This document shows positions 8,626-17,195 of a stretch of 26,569 nucleotides of DNA, in pieces. The DNA is from a virus. The DNA is taken from IMG/VR virus record IMGVR_UViG_3300025132_000238, positions 1 through 26,569 of that record; one strand, written 5' to 3'. Both the position numbers and the translations under genes were made by a program. The notes under the pieces were generated by a model that was not told where the DNA came from, searched no databases, and saw only the letters and a program-made list of their open reading frames with translations. Position 1 is the first letter of the stretch. Every line of letters starts with the position of its first letter.

Positions 8626-9336
8626 TTAGAATAATTCTTGGGCGGCTTTAGATATTCTCTCGTTTGATAGTTCAATAGCTAAAGGATTAATATCGTAAGC
8701 TCTAAATTCATATCCTAATTGCTGTGCTACAAATGGAGTTGTTCCTGTTCCTGAGAATGGATCCACAATGGTGTCATCTTCTTTGGCTGTTATCTTTATT
8801 ATTCTACTTATAACTTCTTGAGGTATTTGATTTGTGTATCCCTTTATTTTTTCCTTAGATACGTTTTTAACGAGGTTAATATCCCACCAATCGGGCAAAG
8901 CTCTACCACCCGTTCTTTTATAAAGTTCCACAACCCTTTTATCTTTCATGTCTTGATAAGGCACTCTTACTTTGGTAAAATCAGGCTTACAATTCCACCA
9001 AGCAACCACCCTCCATGAGCGGTTTTTTAAGTTGCTATTATAAACCCATGACACAACCTTGTCAGGTACGCCTAAGATGGGTACAATATCACGTATTATA
9101 TGTTCAATGTAATGTATAATTACAACGCGGTGTCCTTGCATAGGCTTAAAAAGCTCTTGATATTCTTGTTGCGTTTGACTGTCTTTAAAGCTTCCATTAT
9201 ACTTATAGCCTACATTATATGGCGGATCGCATATTATCAAGTCGTTATCTGAGTACGTTAATGTACGGGCGTCTTTTAGTTGTATCATCTGAATAAGTGT
9301 ATTGACATGAGGATGGCAAGAAGAACAATCAAACAA
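8626..9336 (-). CDS. DNA methyltransferase, N4/N6 amino type
   Basis: A 236-residue S-adenosylmethionine-dependent methyltransferase of the N6_N4_Mtase family. The catalytic motif DPPY (37-40, in ICDPPYNVGY) comes before the cofactor-binding motif DPFSGTGTT (192-200), the circular order of beta-class enzymes. No paired restriction endonuclease is present, so it is an orphan enzyme, probably protecting phage DNA or marking it. The start is uncertain: TTG at 9336 (used) or the better ATG at 9288 (Met17), which still keeps the catalytic motif. The reading frame stays open upstream to 9381, with no ATG or GTG. The coding sequence looks more AT-rich than the late genes, suggesting a separate origin. 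The recognition site cannot be inferred. Confidence 0.88.
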   Translation of the reverse strand: MFDCSSCHPHVNTLIQMIQLKDARTLTYSDNDLIICDPPYNVGYKYNGSFKDSQTQQEYQELFKPMQGHRVVIIHYIEHIIRDIVPILGVPDKVVSWVYNSNLKNRSWRVVAWWNCKPDFTKVRVPYQDMKDKRVVELYKRTGGRALPDWWDINLVKNVSKEKIKGYTNQIPQEVISRIIKITAKEDDTIVDPFSGTGTTPFVAQQLGYEFRAYDINPLAIELSNERISKAAQELF

Positions 9337-10602: not shown

Positions 10603-11070
10603 ATGCAAACAAGCAAAATAAAGACCACGCAATCAAGTGGCACTTACGTAAGTAAGTTTGACGGAGCGACTATGTACACTTCGGAAGTTGAATTGGAAGA
10701 CGGAACAGTTGGCGAAGTGTCAGCTAAGTCACCAGACCGTTGGAACGTAGGCGACGAAGTTGCGTACACAGTAACGGAAGGAAAGTTTGGCAAAAAACTA
10801 AAGCTGAACCGACCAGACTTTGGAAGCAATCCAACAAGCACGGGCAATACGGTAACAAGTTTTCACGATCGCGACGAAAAAAGACAGCATTTAATAATGA
10901 ATCAATGGGCAATCAAAACAGCTATGGATTGGGAAATGAACCAAGCACCACCGGACAAAGTAAGCCTAAGAAATGCGGTAAACATTGCAAAGCAACTCAA
11001 GAAGTATGCGCTTGATTTAGAAGAGGCTAATGTTGAACTTCCAGAAGTGGAACTACCCGGCCCGTTCTAA
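10603..11070 (+). CDS. OB-fold-like protein, candidate single-stranded-DNA-binding protein
   Basis: A 155-residue protein. Residues 1-70 show five beta-like segments (YVSKFDGATMYTSEVELEDG, GEVSAKSP, WNVGDEVAYTVTEG, KLKLNRP), a pattern like small OB-fold domains. Residues 85-140 are helical. The C-terminus ends in ELPEVELPGPF: acidic residues followed by a terminal Pro-Phe, as in the tip that bacterial SSB uses to recruit partner proteins. The gene is next to the HTH and DnaD-like replication genes, and no other SSB is visible. I infer an SSB-like role. It differs from canonical SSB, so another OB-fold function is possible. The stop overlaps the next start (TAATG). Confidence 0.5.
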   Translation: MQTSKIKTTQSSGTYVSKFDGATMYTSEVELEDGTVGEVSAKSPDRWNVGDEVAYTVTEGKFGKKLKLNRPDFGSNPTSTGNTVTSFHDRDEKRQHLIMNQWAIKTAMDWEMNQAPPDKVSLRNAVNIAKQLKKYALDLEEANVELPEVELPGPF

Positions 11071-11297
11071 TGAAAAAACAAAGATCAGACTTCAAGGAGT
11101 TTATTGGCAAACATTACGGAACACAAACCCGAATGGCCAAAGAACTTGGAATAACAACCGCTACTATAAACGGTTGGATTAAACGAAACCCGCGTGGCAT
11201 ATTAAAGTATGCACCGGAAATTGTTAAAGACAAAAACGTAACCGCCTCGCAGATAGTTTGGGAGGTTATGCACCACGAGCGTATTTTGTCGGAATGA
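11070..11297 (+). CDS. Cro-like helix-turn-helix protein
   Basis: A 75-residue basic protein with a helix-turn-helix at residues 17-38 (GTQTRMAKELGITTATINGW), in which the first helix carries the Q-x-x-x-A pattern and the second is the recognition helix. Size and layout match phage Cro-type or small transcription regulators. It overlaps the gene before by one base and the DnaD-like gene by four (ATGA). Position between the OB-fold-like and replication genes suggests early-gene control or origin binding. There is no partner CI-type repressor in the genome. The DNA target is unknown. Confidence 0.75.
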   Translation: MKKQRSDFKEFIGKHYGTQTRMAKELGITTATINGWIKRNPRGILKYAPEIVKDKNVTASQIVWEVMHHERILSE

Positions 11298-11980
11298 TTG
11301 ACTACTTCACATTCTCACGAATAGACGCCGAACAATACGGAGTGGATGAGGCAGTAATGCTTCACCACATCCGTTATTGGGTGGCTAAGAATGAGGCTAA
11401 CGATCACAACTACCGTGATGGTAAGTATTGGACATACAACACGCAGTCGGCTTTGGCGCAGTTATTTCCATATTGGAGCGCGCGCAAAGTTGGCCGAATA
11501 CTGTCTAAGCTTGAAGAGGCCGGCGCAATAGAGTCCGGCAACTACAACGACAAGAAGTACGACCGTACTAAATGGTTTACTTTGTCAAATGCAAATGACA
11601 AAACCGGTGACGTCCATTTGTCAAAATTGACGAATGCAAATACCGAAACTGTCGAACCTATACCAAATAACAACCAAAGTACTAAGCATAGTATTAACAT
11701 AGTATATCCGTGGGACTCTGAATTGTTCAAAAAAACTTGGGATATATGGAAGCAATACAAAAAGGAACAGTTTAATTTTAAGTACGCTAACAAATACACC
11801 GAACAAGCACAACTCAAAAAGCTAACAAATCTTGCTCAAAATGAAGAACACAAAGCAATCGAACTTATTGAATACGCAATTGCAGAAGGGTGGAAAGGAT
11901 TCTACCCAATTAGAAATAAGGCAACAACAAGTAATGGCTTCGACGCTGAAAAGTATCGCGCGCATCTCGAGTCGCTCTAA
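11294..11980 (+). CDS. DnaD-like phage replication protein
   Basis: A 228-residue protein. I chose the ATG at 11294, which gives an ATGA overlap, over an in-frame start at 11258. Residues 5-100 form a winged-helix domain (DAEQYGVDEAVMLHHIRYW, YNTQSALAQLFPYWSARKVG, LSKLEEAGAI), as in phage replisome organisers and DnaD-type primosome proteins. Residues 101-140 are a low-complexity linker with imperfect repeats (LSNANDK, LTNANTE). Residues 141-205 form a helical C-terminal domain (WDSELFKKTWDIWKQYKKEQ, ending WKGFYP) like DnaD/DnaB2 domains. By analogy with lambda O the protein should bind the origin and recruit the host helicase. The DNA encoding its linker contains repeats that could be that origin. 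Confidence 0.8.
   Translation: MIDYFTFSRIDAEQYGVDEAVMLHHIRYWVAKNEANDHNYRDGKYWTYNTQSALAQLFPYWSARKVGRILSKLEEAGAIESGNYNDKKYDRTKWFTLSNANDKTGDVHLSKLTNANTETVEPIPNNNQSTKHSINIVYPWDSELFKKTWDIWKQYKKEQFNFKYANKYTEQAQLKKLTNLAQNEEHKAIELIEYAIAEGWKGFYPIRNKATTSNGFDAEKYRAHLESL
11556..11705. other. Candidate replication origin (iterons plus AT-rich repeats)
   Basis: Inside the linker-coding part of the DnaD-like gene lie an inverted repeat AGTACG/CGTACT (11556-11569), TTTGTCAA at 11581-11588 and 11617-11624, the inverted near-copies ATGACAAA (11595-11602) and TTGACGAA (11627-11634), and ATGCAAAT twice (11589-11596, 11634-11641). An AT-rich stretch with two tandem CATAGTAT copies at an 11-base period follows (11687-11705). 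Lambdoid phages place their origin at the same spot, inside the O gene. Confidence 0.5.
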
Positions 11981-12476
11981 GATCACACCGGCGGAAGCGT
12001 GGCATCATGGAACAAATGTACGCGCCGCATTTAAGTATTGCCCAAGACAAACGCACGCCGCACTTACCGCCTTGCTAAAGTCTACGCTTGACTATCTAAA
12101 CTACAACAAGACGATCCGCGAAACCGAACACATCATAGAAGCGGTTGACTATTTGATTGAGGAATTTCCGGCCATGAAGATTGAAGAGTGGCGTTGCATA
12201 ATGACAAACTTCAAAGCGGGCAAATATGGCAACCAATATGAACGTCTAATGCTTCCGGAACTTGTCGAGGCTTTTCAGATATACGAAGGACAACGAGCAG
12301 AACGTCGCGAAACTAAATGGAAGCATTTAAGAGATAAACCGGTCGAACCCATGACGGACGAACAACGCGACATACTCAAAAAGTTGTCGGAGGATCTAAA
12401 CCTAAAAGAAGACGACACCGACGAGAGAGGAAGATGGAAGCACATACCGCACCCAAATTCGGAAGAATCTGATTAA
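11934..12476 (+). CDS. Helical protein following the replication gene
   Basis: A 180-residue protein. I chose the ATG at 11934, within the last 47 bases of the DnaD-like gene; an upstream in-frame start at 11832 would add 34 residues lying wholly inside that gene. The core is all helical. The block EEWRCIMTNFKAGKYGNQYERL, then LPELVEAFQIYEGQRAERRE, is a pattern I associate with small proteins that follow the replication gene in Bacteroidetes phages and prophages (DUF6633-like). A helicase-loader or primosome accessory role is the contextual guess. The last 40 residues are acidic and then basic, probably disordered. There is no Walker motif, so it is not a DnaC-type ATPase. Confidence 0.6.
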   Translation: MASTLKSIARISSRSKITPAEAWHHGTNVRAAFKYCPRQTHAALTALLKSTLDYLNYNKTIRETEHIIEAVDYLIEEFPAMKIEEWRCIMTNFKAGKYGNQYERLMLPELVEAFQIYEGQRAERRETKWKHLRDKPVEPMTDEQRDILKKLSEDLNLKEDDTDERGRWKHIPHPNSEESD

Positions 12477-12514: not shown

Positions 12515-12646
12515 ATGGATGGTTTAATTATAGCAATGATTGTACTCGCGTTTGTAGACATAGGCGTCGAGTATTATATATCTCAAGGCGTCAGAGTAAA
12601 TGAAGCCGTTATTGCTTTGCTTGGTGTATTGTATTTATGCCTGTAA
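12515..12646 (+). CDS. Small two-span membrane protein
   Basis: A 43-residue protein with two hydrophobic stretches, residues 3-18 (GLIIAMIVLAFVDIGV) and 31-43 (AVIALLGVLYLCL), separated by a short polar loop. It overlaps the NinG start by ten bases. It fills a 160-base gap between two genes, which supports it. A shorter version from Met8 is possible. The function is unknown; small early phage membrane proteins sometimes act in superinfection exclusion, but nothing here shows that. Confidence 0.5.
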   Translation: MDGLIIAMIVLAFVDIGVEYYISQGVRVNEAVIALLGVLYLCL

Positions 12647-13014
12647 AGCGTTCGACACTTGTCAAGAAGTTAGACAAAGTATTTAGTCAATACGTCCGAA
12701 TGAAGGACGCCGACCACGCAGGCTACGTTTCTTGTTTCACTTGTGGTGTAAGTAAAAATTGGAAGGAAGTGGACGCAGGCCATTTTCAATCTCGTGGAAA
12801 GTACGCAACGCGATGGACTGAGGATAATGTCAAGCCCCAGTGTAAACGGTGCAATGGCTTTCGCGGTGGTGAGCAGTACTTGTTCGCTCTCAACCTTGGG
12901 ACAGAGTTAGCAGATGAGCTTGTTATCCAAAGCAACCACCCGGCCAGACTTACTAACGAATGGTTGTTAGAAAAAATAAAACACTACCAAGCGGAAGTGA
13001 AGAAACTTTTGTAA
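12637..13014 (+). CDS. ninG: NinG/Rap-type recombination nuclease
   Basis: A 125-residue protein of the lambda NinG (Rap) family, a structure-specific nuclease acting on Holliday-junction and D-loop recombination intermediates. The zinc cluster and catalytic core are visible: Cys33-x-x-Cys36 (SCFTCG), the signature DAGHFQSRG (46-54) with His49, and Cys69-x-x-Cys72-Asn (QCKRCNG). The short N-terminal basic helix (residues 1-25) is also typical. Lambda NinG is longer (about 200 residues), so this is a compact version covering the conserved domain. Position after the replication genes matches the lambda order O-P-ninG. It probably aids resolution of replication or recombination intermediates before packaging. 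Confidence 0.85.
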   Translation: MPVKRSTLVKKLDKVFSQYVRMKDADHAGYVSCFTCGVSKNWKEVDAGHFQSRGKYATRWTEDNVKPQCKRCNGFRGGEQYLFALNLGTELADELVIQSNHPARLTNEWLLEKIKHYQAEVKKLL

Positions 13015-13023
13015 ACTTTAGAG

Positions 13024-13572
13024 GTGGTTCAAAAGTACATACGCGAAAACTATGACGCAATTATTGAGATTGCTAAGGTAATAACGCAAGCACGCTACCC
13101 TGACTTTGAAGACTTAGCTCACGAAGTTATTATTGCCGTCTTAACGGCTAACCGCGAAAAGATGAACGCTATAGTTGCAAAGAATCAGATGCGGTTTTGG
13201 ATCATACGACTTTGCGTTAACAATTACAGAAGCACCACAAGTCGCTACCACTACAAATACAGGAAGCCATCAGAACGACACAGGCAAGCGGCCGAACATT
13301 TGCGACACCTTCACAAGTTGGACGAGATAGACCAAAAGAAGTGGAACGAAGTATTGCTTAAATTTATAGACGAAAAGCTTGAAGACGTCGAATGGTTTGA
13401 AAAAAACTGCTTTGCTATATACTACGGCGACAAGCACTCGCTTAACTCATTAGCAAAAGAAACGGGAATAAGTCGCAACACTTTGTACCGTGCAATCCGC
13501 GACGTCAGAACATACATACAAAATGAAAAAGAAAAGCAAGGGCTTAGGCGACACTATACAAAAAGTAACTAA
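13024..13572 (+). CDS. Sigma-factor-like protein
   Basis: A 182-residue basic protein with a GTG start at 13024 preceded by GAG; no ATG is available before the conserved region. Residues 26-40 (PDFEDLAHEVIIAVL) resemble sigma region 2.2, the core-polymerase contact. Residues 58-80 (FWIIRLCVNNYRSTTSRYHY) resemble regions 2.3-2.4. Residues 139-165 (SLNSLAKETGISRNTLYRAI) are a helix-turn-helix like region 4. Length and the two-domain layout match ECF-type sigma factors, and phage-coded copies occur in Bacteroidetes phages. It sits before the packaging and late genes, so late-gene activation is the natural hypothesis. It could also act as an anti-host or regulatory DNA-binding protein. Confidence 0.65.
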   Translation: MVQKYIRENYDAIIEIAKVITQARYPDFEDLAHEVIIAVLTANREKMNAIVAKNQMRFWIIRLCVNNYRSTTSRYHYKYRKPSERHRQAAEHLRHLHKLDEIDQKKWNEVLLKFIDEKLEDVEWFEKNCFAIYYGDKHSLNSLAKETGISRNTLYRAIRDVRTYIQNEKEKQGLRRHYTKSN

Positions 13573-13918: not shown

Positions 13919-14147
13919 GAACATAAACACAAGCGACGACTTCTTGTTAATCTCAAGACACAAGAACGTCATCAAGATACAGTCGCACAACAACGACTCC
14001 CCGAATATCATATTAGACTTAGCCGTAGCAAACAAGCCCTTCTTGGAATTGCTTAGGGCTGTTTTAAAATCAGTAGATGAACATCAAGAAAACCAAAAGA
14101 CCGATAGGCCAACTCCAGACGGATCCGCACAACCCGCGAAGCCTTAA
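13896..14147 (+). CDS. Small protein of unknown function
   Basis: An 83-residue protein that starts 23 bases before the previous stop and overlaps the next gene by 71 bases in another frame. Residues 14-60 look folded (DDFLLISRHKNVIKIQSHNN, then LDLAVANKPFLELLRAVLKS), with beta strands followed by a helix. The C-terminal 25 residues, which fall in the overlap, are polar and disordered. That is what is expected if the overlap is tolerated. No family was recognised. Confidence 0.55.
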   Translation: MAHRQANKNINTSDDFLLISRHKNVIKIQSHNNDSPNIILDLAVANKPFLELLRAVLKSVDEHQENQKTDRPTPDGSAQPAKP

Positions 14148-15555
14148 CAAGGAGAAGTACAAGAAGCTGAAATCCTCGATTGAGGCATTTCCTGAAATGT
14201 TATCTGTTCGCCCTTTAGTGGTAGCGGACGGTTATGTGGTGGGCGGTAATATGCGACTACTTGCCCTTAAAGAATTAGGCTACCGAGAGGTTGACGTTAT
14301 AGACGTTAGCGATTGGACGAAAGCACAGCGCGACGAGTTTATGATTAAAGACAACCTAAGCTACGGCGATTGGGATTGGGACTTGCTTGCTAATGAGTGG
14401 GACGCGATGGATCTTGAAGCATGGGGACTTGACGTTTGGACTGACGACGTAGACGTTGCACCGGGGCTGACAGATAAAGACGAACTACCCGACAAAGCGG
14501 GAATCGAACTCAAGACACAGCCCGGCGACATTTGGCAACTGGGCAACCACCGCATCATGTGTGGCGATTGCACCAAGCCGGAAAACTTAGCGAAGTTATT
14601 CGACGGCGAAAAGGCCGACCTTATTCACGCCGACCCACCTTACGGAATGGGTAAGCAAAAGGACGGTGTGCAGAACGACAACCTATACCGCGAAAAATTA
14701 GACGCCTTCCAAATGGATTGGTGGAAGACTTGCCGCGCCTTTACAATAGACAAAGGAAGTGCCTACATTTGGGGCAACGCACCGGACTTGTGGAGGCTAT
14801 GGTATAAAGGTGGACTCCAAGACTTTGAGCAATACGACCTACGCAATGAGATAGTTTGGGACAAGAAAAATGTACCAGGCATGAAGTCCGAACTAATGCA
14901 CCAGTACCCGGAAGCGTCAGAGCGTTGTTTATACTTTCAATTTGGCCAACAGTTTATAGGCAACATAAACGCCGCAGACTTTCCCGACGAATTTAGACCG
15001 CTTTTAGACTTTCAGCAAAAGGAACTTGAACGCGCAGGCATAGGCAAAAAAGAAGTCGAAAGAATAACCGGCGTGCAAATGTTCAGCCATTGGTTCACGG
15101 AGTCGCAGTTTCAGATTATAGGAGAGAAGCACTACAAGAAACTACAAGAAAAAACTACGGCATTCGTTAAACCTTGGTCAAACCTTAAAGAACAATGGGA
15201 CGAAATAAAGGGAGTAAAGTCCGGAATTATTAGAGGCAAGTTAAAAGGAATGCGCTCATACTTTGATAACGCCCATGACATCATGCGCGACGTTTGGGAG
15301 TTTGACAGGGTACACGGCGACGAACGACACAACCACGCAACACCAAAGCCGGTGGATATGATGGAGCGTTGTATAAAGTCAAGCTGTCCTGTAGGGGGCA
15401 TAGTCCTTGAGCCGTTCCTTGGTTCGGGTTCTACACTTATTGGCGCAGAAGCCACAGGCCGTTCTTGCTATGGTTTAGAACTAAGTCCGGAATATATAGA
15501 CACAGTAGTCAATCGTTGGGAAAAGTACACCGGAAGACAAGCCTTTAAGATATGA
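14077..15555 (+). CDS. ParB-domain / DNA methyltransferase fusion
   Basis: A 492-residue protein. Residues 8-95 form a ParB/sulfiredoxin-like domain (IGQLQTDPHNPRSLNKEKY, VVGGNMRLLALKELGY), in which the GGNMR motif is the nucleotide-binding box. Residues 160-492 are an N6_N4-type DNA methyltransferase with DPPYGMG from 186 and EPFLGSGST at 445-453. Between them lies an insertion at about 250-400 that probably recognises the target. ParB-methyltransferase fusions are common directly upstream of phage terminases. They probably modify phage DNA to evade restriction, or link modification to packaging. The start keeps the canonical ParB beginning despite a 71-base overlap. The stop overlaps the small terminase start (ATGA). 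Confidence 0.9.
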   Translation: MNIKKTKRPIGQLQTDPHNPRSLNKEKYKKLKSSIEAFPEMLSVRPLVVADGYVVGGNMRLLALKELGYREVDVIDVSDWTKAQRDEFMIKDNLSYGDWDWDLLANEWDAMDLEAWGLDVWTDDVDVAPGLTDKDELPDKAGIELKTQPGDIWQLGNHRIMCGDCTKPENLAKLFDGEKADLIHADPPYGMGKQKDGVQNDNLYREKLDAFQMDWWKTCRAFTIDKGSAYIWGNAPDLWRLWYKGGLQDFEQYDLRNEIVWDKKNVPGMKSELMHQYPEASERCLYFQFGQQFIGNINAADFPDEFRPLLDFQQKELERAGIGKKEVERITGVQMFSHWFTESQFQIIGEKHYKKLQEKTTAFVKPWSNLKEQWDEIKGVKSGIIRGKLKGMRSYFDNAHDIMRDVWEFDRVHGDERHNHATPKPVDMMERCIKSSCPVGGIVLEPFLGSGSTLIGAEATGRSCYGLELSPEYIDTVVNRWEKYTGRQAFKI

Positions 15556-17064: not shown

Positions 17065-17195
17065 TGAACATATCAATCTTCAAATTACACGCACAATTTA
17101 TCCCTTTTCCCACAATAACTATATCGTGGGATTTCACATTAGACATCACCTTTGCGTGGGGATTGTGGGGCATTAACATTGAAATAAAACACTAA
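17064..17195 (+). CDS. Small aromatic protein of unknown function
   Basis: A 43-residue protein starting in the stop of the large terminase (TAATG) and ending in the start of the tail chaperone (TAATG). One-base overlaps at both ends strongly argue that it is translated. It is rich in Ile, Phe and Trp with alternating polar residues (FPTITISWDFTLDITFAWGL), which suggests beta strands rather than a membrane helix. No homologous family can be named. Confidence 0.7.
   Translation: MNISIFKLHAQFIPFPTITISWDFTLDITFAWGLWGINIEIKH

Follow-up and report, generated by a model that had tools for sequence, protein, structure and literature searches.

The linker of a phage initiator gene very probably doubles as the replication origin of the phage, as judged from its sequence and that of its relatives. 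The DNA analyzed here is a virus record of 26,569 bp, in the following termed the window, and the gene belongs to a family of replication initiators. The DNA encoding the linker is under selection as DNA. It combines palindromes around a common core, a fixed register of these cores to a box, and neighboring DNA of low stability. The element consists of three palindromic sites of ~22 bp with an ATG(C/G)A core, a half-site, the box CCTATACCA, and then unstable DNA. From this architecture, we infer protein binding, DNA melting, helicase loading, and origin activity at the element. The features are listed in window coordinates, with core positions given relative to the box.

11294-11980, + strand: initiator gene of replication, O-like/DnaD-like by PHROG profile matches, 228 aa; its ATG start overlaps the upstream stop codon
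11318-11587, + strand: N-terminal winged-helix domain, predicted and likely iteron-binding (AlphaFold2, mostly pLDDT 67-87; weak Foldseek matches)
11557-11569, no strand: AGTACG/CGTACT inverted repeat, present, unconserved, and not part of the element
11581-11602, + strand: iteron 1, TTTGTCAAATGCAAATGACAAA, with arms TGTCA/TGACA and the core ATGCA at 11589, 68 bp upstream of the box
11582-11683, + strand: DNA-constrained segment and proposed origin core, synonymous identity 0.936 versus 0.597 in the rest of the gene
11597-11692, + strand: disordered linker, residues 101-132 (AlphaFold2 pLDDT about 36-43), whose coding DNA overlaps the DNA element
11608-11623, - strand: iteron 2, inverted, TGAC-GTCCATTT-GTCA, with arms TGAC/GTCA around TCCAT and the core at 11613 (-44)
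11626-11648, + strand: iteron 3, ATTGACGAATGCAAATACCGAAA, with the core ATGCA at 11634 (-23) and imperfect arms
11649-11656, + strand: terminal half-site CTGTCGAA, adjoining the box
11657-11665, + strand: invariant box CCTATACCA, coding for P-I-P, at the junction of iterons and unwinding region
11658-11707, + strand: candidate DNA unwinding element, the least stable 50 bp of the gene and within the lowest 0.5% of the window
11687-11705, + strand: CATAGTAT pair, inside the AT-rich stretch, unconserved
11720-11887, + strand: C-terminal helical domain, proposed helicase-loader contact (AlphaFold2 helices at residues 142-159, 166-179, and 184-197)

The gene starts at ATG 11294 and not at TTG 11258. 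The resulting protein of 228 aa matches the profiles of PHROG 11233 "replication initiation protein" (E 1.5e-31), PHROG 6493 "DnaD-like helicase loader" (E 7e-15), and PHROG 678 "replication initiation O-like" (E 3e-13). It belongs to these families both by profile and by its succession of winged helix, linker, and C-terminal domain. The same succession is seen in the AlphaFold2 model (mean pLDDT 70), in which the linker is disordered and the C-terminal part is helical. Searching with this model by Foldseek gave no match at E<0.001, and a named initiator fold is thus weakly backed. The weak matches are mostly of a general winged-helix type and include the N-terminal domains of the plasmid initiators 4pql, 4pt7, and 5kbj, which align to the initiator N-terminal domain with a Foldseek probability of 0.82-0.97 but an E value of 0.13-0.26. 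A sequence search against solved structures gave no meaningful match to the initiator. Relatives of the C-terminal domain (residues 135-218; about 42-49% identity) are found in other phage proteins (L061, L062, L063, L064, L066, and L067) behind an unrelated N-terminal domain; hence, domains seem to be swapped at the linker, which is the proposed origin.

The first-pass annotation had placed a candidate origin at 11556-11705; the conserved element is narrower and extends over about 11580-11690. Within it, the four TTTGTCAA-type sites of that annotation are found at 11581 (+ strand, exact), 11595 (- strand, one mismatch), 11617 (+ strand, exact), and 11627 (- strand, one mismatch). Since such sites occur 55 times in the whole 26.6 kb at up to one mismatch, four of them within 54 bp form a strong cluster. 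The two exact copies of ATGCAAAT are likewise present, at 11589 and 11634, with one further copy in the window at 17195. The AGTACG/CGTACT repeat does exist (11557-11562/11564-11569) but lies outside the conserved element, in DNA whose synonymous conservation is not raised, and relatives have not retained it. The CATAGTAT pair occurs at 11687 and 11698 in an AT-rich stretch as described but is unconserved, its first copy being missing even in L001 and L002, relatives of 99-100% identity. Overlooked in that reading were the best conserved part, CCTATACCA at 11657-11665, and a third, inverted site at 11608-11623.

The arms of iteron 1 are exact, and the only exact match to TGTCA-N8-TGACA in the window is at 11583-11600; in iteron 3, the right arm is imperfect. 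By repeat density, the linker ranks second among all 110-bp windows (99.96th percentile). Recoding its peptide at random with synonymous codons yields weaker repeats than the natural DNA has; P is 0.0075 for the window sequence, and P<0.05 was reached in 19 of the 23 sequences tested. The box codons CCT, ATA, and CCA are kept in 17/18, 18/18, and 18/18 close representatives, respectively, and CCTATACCA is found again at the same place in distant phages. The arms differ from this pattern of conservation: in the clade L014-L028, they are mostly GGTAA/TTACC in place of TGTCA/TGACA, with core and box unchanged. A covariation of wing residues with the arms (acidic with TGTCA, Gly/Lys with GGTAA) was considered and dropped because L085 and L086 have Asp together with GGTAA or mixed arms. 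As in an embedded iteron origin, repeated palindromic sites under DNA-level selection lie within an initiator gene, and easily melted DNA is adjacent to them (11658-11707). In the L014-L028 clade, the stability minimum of the gene lies elsewhere than behind the box, where the DNA is at the 12-21st percentile.

The same layout recurs in wider relatives. Viral contigs were scanned for CCTATACCAGATA-N(1-3)-AAAC, and 81 places were examined among the matches listed. In 64 of these 81, again among the matches listed, the motif lies in frame within a gene that has a winged-helix signature upstream. Sixty-five loci, drawn from the matches listed together with close and distant relatives and freed of near-duplicates, were aligned on the box. 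In this alignment, among the matches listed, 33 of the 65 loci have an ATG(C/G)A core beginning at -23, and 30 have one beginning at -45; further cores start at -67/-68 in 12 and at -89 in 10 of the 65 (among the matches listed). Inverted cores peak at -22, -44, -66, and -88 in the same 65 loci among the matches listed, which defines a register of 22 bp. The cores of the window fall at -68, -44 (inverted), and -23. The arms flanking the cores are complementary (at least 4/5) in 57% of cores versus 16% of background occurrences (p 3e-21, among the matches listed), and their sequence varies between phages. The 5-mers at the position of the half-site are found again in the iterons upstream of it in 30-38 of the 65 loci among the matches listed, versus 12.9 expected. 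On its downstream side, the box is followed by a continuing 12-bp AT-rich repeat (65 loci, among the matches listed), of which the search pattern covered the first part only.

A check leaning less on the box used 41 nonredundant loci picked by protein similarity alone, with a box match defined as a score reached by at most 2% of the same-length windows of the own locus. At this threshold, 26 of the 41 linkers match the box consensus, and cores peak at -23 (11 loci) and -45 (9 loci) versus 0.12 expected per position. Several of the 41 loci also belong to the set of 65, so that the two sets are not fully independent. Protein-selected loci with a box include phages of Bacteroides, Vibrio, and Flavobacterium; Burkholderia phage BcepMigl shows a weaker box match (13/20). 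A clear box is absent in about 15 of the 41 protein-selected relatives, for example, in Bacillus BhaS-171 and Staphylococcus 96. Many members without the box nevertheless have a linker that ranks with the most repeat-dense regions of its locus. The linkers of L032, L039, L056, and L068 contain tandem peptide repeats (e.g., AQNEQGSETL and FQNETRS) that mirror strong DNA repeats of very different sequence. Plasmid proteins related to the initiator exist. No plasmid copy of the box was found with the 33-nt consensus, and hence no natural minimal replicon.

Taken together, it appears probable, with some reservation, that O-like/DnaD-like initiator genes follow a single origin grammar in their coding linker, in phages of Bacteroidota, of Proteobacteria, and of further hosts. 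It would comprise palindromic iterons in which the ATG(C/G)A core is constant and the arms are particular to each phage, a 22-bp register (-23, -45, -67, -89) fixed relative to a nearly invariant CCTATACCAGATA box, and 12-bp AT-rich repeats thereafter; at this box, strands would be opened or the helicase loaded in all of these phages.

Palindromic sites of this kind might instead be operators, through which the initiator or an upstream helix-turn-helix protein represses or tunes transcription through the initiator gene, with no origin involved. Winged-helix proteins typically bind palindromic operators, and a Cro/YdaS-like helix-turn-helix gene lies immediately upstream (11070-11297). The sites, however, are located mid-gene rather than at a promoter, and the window contains no second copy of the perfect palindrome. 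Neither the fixed register to the box and the AT-rich repeats nor the placement in the linker across so many phages is predicted by an operator, which makes this explanation improbable.

An origin of the constraint in RNA, with the inverted arms forming mRNA hairpins that regulate translation or stability, is less probable still. Palindromes make hairpins by construction, and folding prediction gives 11575-11715 a somewhat higher stability than shuffled sequences (z -2.25), a mild excess that is expected of any palindromic region. Hairpins, however, need neither a common arm sequence between copies nor a 22-bp register. They also do not require the invariant CCTATACCA, which is predicted to be mostly unpaired, or the AT-rich repeats that follow it, and an Rfam search of the region returned no family match.

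The level at which the constraint acts was determined from close relatives, 29 at first (56-100% amino acid identity) and five added later. The codon alignment comprises 18 representatives, and its columns were permuted 20,000 times. The best window of 34 codons is exactly 11582-11683, and none of the 20,000 column permutations reaches it (P at most 5e-5). Amino acid identity is 0.546 inside this segment versus 0.656 outside. Codon position 3 is the best conserved inside (0.78 vs 0.71 and 0.75) and the worst conserved outside (0.54). Because synonymous sites are conserved more and amino acids less in the linker, the constraint acts on DNA. The linker DNA, and not the peptide, is under strong selection, and the comparison of DNA repeats with amino acids in related phages that the first-pass annotation had proposed comes out clearly in favor of DNA.

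The reading of the core word points in the same direction. At -23, it is read as Asn-Gly/Asn-Ala and at -45 as Met-Glu/Met-Asp; a step of 22 bp is not divisible by three and thus shifts the reading frame between the two positions. One core word in two frames means that the DNA is conserved rather than the protein, and an explanation at the peptide level fails. The earlier view of the linker peptide repeats as a by-product of DNA repeats is supported by this two-frame reading. That the peptide itself (NA/NG, PIP, and similar motifs) is selected and the DNA repeats are incidental is therefore hardly credible, even though P-I-P and Asn residues recur in many members: besides the two frames, codon position 3 is the most conserved, the amino acids are less conserved than elsewhere in the gene, and the linker is predicted to be disordered. 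A second gene overlapping in another frame or strand, for which antisense ORFs are open in the window at 11542-11817 and 11621-11812, is refuted as a conserved source of the synonymous constraint by stops that break nearly all alternative frames in relatives, and its probability is negligible.

For the linker as an origin, the following mechanism can be envisaged from the arrangement of sites and domains. The N-terminal winged-helix domain, probably as a dimer, would bind the three palindromic iterons spaced by ~22 bp (11581-11648) and the half-site (11649-11656). The two-turn spacing would place all copies of the site on one face of the DNA. The complex of initiator and DNA would strain and open the adjacent unstable DNA of about 11657-11707, which starts at CCTATACCA; the helical domain at the C-terminus may then bring the replicative helicase or its loader to the opened strand. 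The cumulative GC skew of the whole window climbs throughout with gene direction, shows no minimum at 11.6 kb, and is uninformative in this regard.

Initiator genes with an internal origin are already known from phage lambda (gene O) and plasmid pSK41 (Rep). In lambda, dimers of O occupy inverted-repeat iterons within gene O, whereupon a neighboring A+T-rich region of 40 bp is opened (PMC5043065). The positional parallel to lambda drawn in the first-pass annotation is borne out, with four annotated lambda iterons at codons 117-145 of gene O. In the lambda record, they are located at 39034, 39054, 39078, and 39101, that is, 20-24 bp apart and close to the 22-bp register found here. The lambda origin, like the origin proposed here, is flanked within the initiator gene by the segments coding for the DNA-binding part and the C-terminal part. 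The lambda iterons are inverted repeats of 18-19 bp; their spacing of about two turns resembles that found here, and they are followed by an A+T-rich region. The sequences of arms and core differ, and no CCTATACCA-type box follows the lambda iterons. Between lambda O and the protein studied here, no sequence homology is detectable (BLAST E 1.4; hhalign probability 0.2%). In Rep of the staphylococcal plasmid pSK41, the winged-helix domain binds four Rep boxes in the central part of rep, and the protein can do without its linker peptide (PMC5703833). Both its N- and C-terminal domains resemble DnaD, and the linker is encoded by ori (PMC5703833). The pSK41-type RepA_N initiators resemble the present one in having a winged-helix N-terminal domain, a linker encoded by the ori (here the proposed one), and a C-terminal domain. 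They differ in that pSK41 is a plasmid and the present system a phage; the fold similarity is weak, and Pfam RepA_N gave no match to the initiator up to E 1. Because the protein groups by sequence with neither lambda O nor RepA_N, the claim is that it works like them, within the O-like initiators of PHROG. A homologous protein is encoded by phages of PHROG 11233/678/6493, for example, Bacteroides phage B124-14, Vibrio phages 1.247.A and 1.213.O, and Flavobacterium elemoE. Several phages of these families carry the same linker module, with the box and cores at -23/-45; they differ in iteron arms and core count, and some members have no clear box.

The next gene downstream (11934-12476, + strand) shares 47 bp with the initiator gene, and its sole match is to the uncharacterized PHROG 35728 (E 2e-9); by its position, analogous to lambda P, it could encode a helicase loader. 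A NinG/Rap-type nuclease gene (12637-13014) precedes a gene for a small sigma-factor-like protein (13024-13572, + strand; weak match to PHROG 1740, E 1.6e-4). DNA methyltransferase genes are located at 14077-15555 (+ strand) and 8626-9336 (- strand), the former showing a weak ParB-like N-terminal match (E 0.06) ahead of an N6/N4 methylase domain. Gene order suggests that the window is a circularly permuted, nearly complete genome of a small phage. Structural-type genes run off both window ends, and the contigs of the relatives L011 and L012 are 26.5-26.8 kb in size. The IMG/VR topology of the record is linear.

To our knowledge, the origin has been located in only a minority of uncultured phages and seldom emerges from skew analysis. 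A limited literature search found no description of the box or the 22-bp register, which is weak evidence of their novelty. Here, sequence alone leads to the prediction of an origin at the level of base pairs. The box with cores at -23/-45 provides a rule by which numerous phage genomes can be scanned and which short plasmids can put to the test. One stretch of DNA herein serves both as protein code and as candidate binding site, with the DNA role dominant and the same word used in two frames. The invariance of the box, as opposed to the phage-specific arms of the iterons, raises the testable question of what reads the box.
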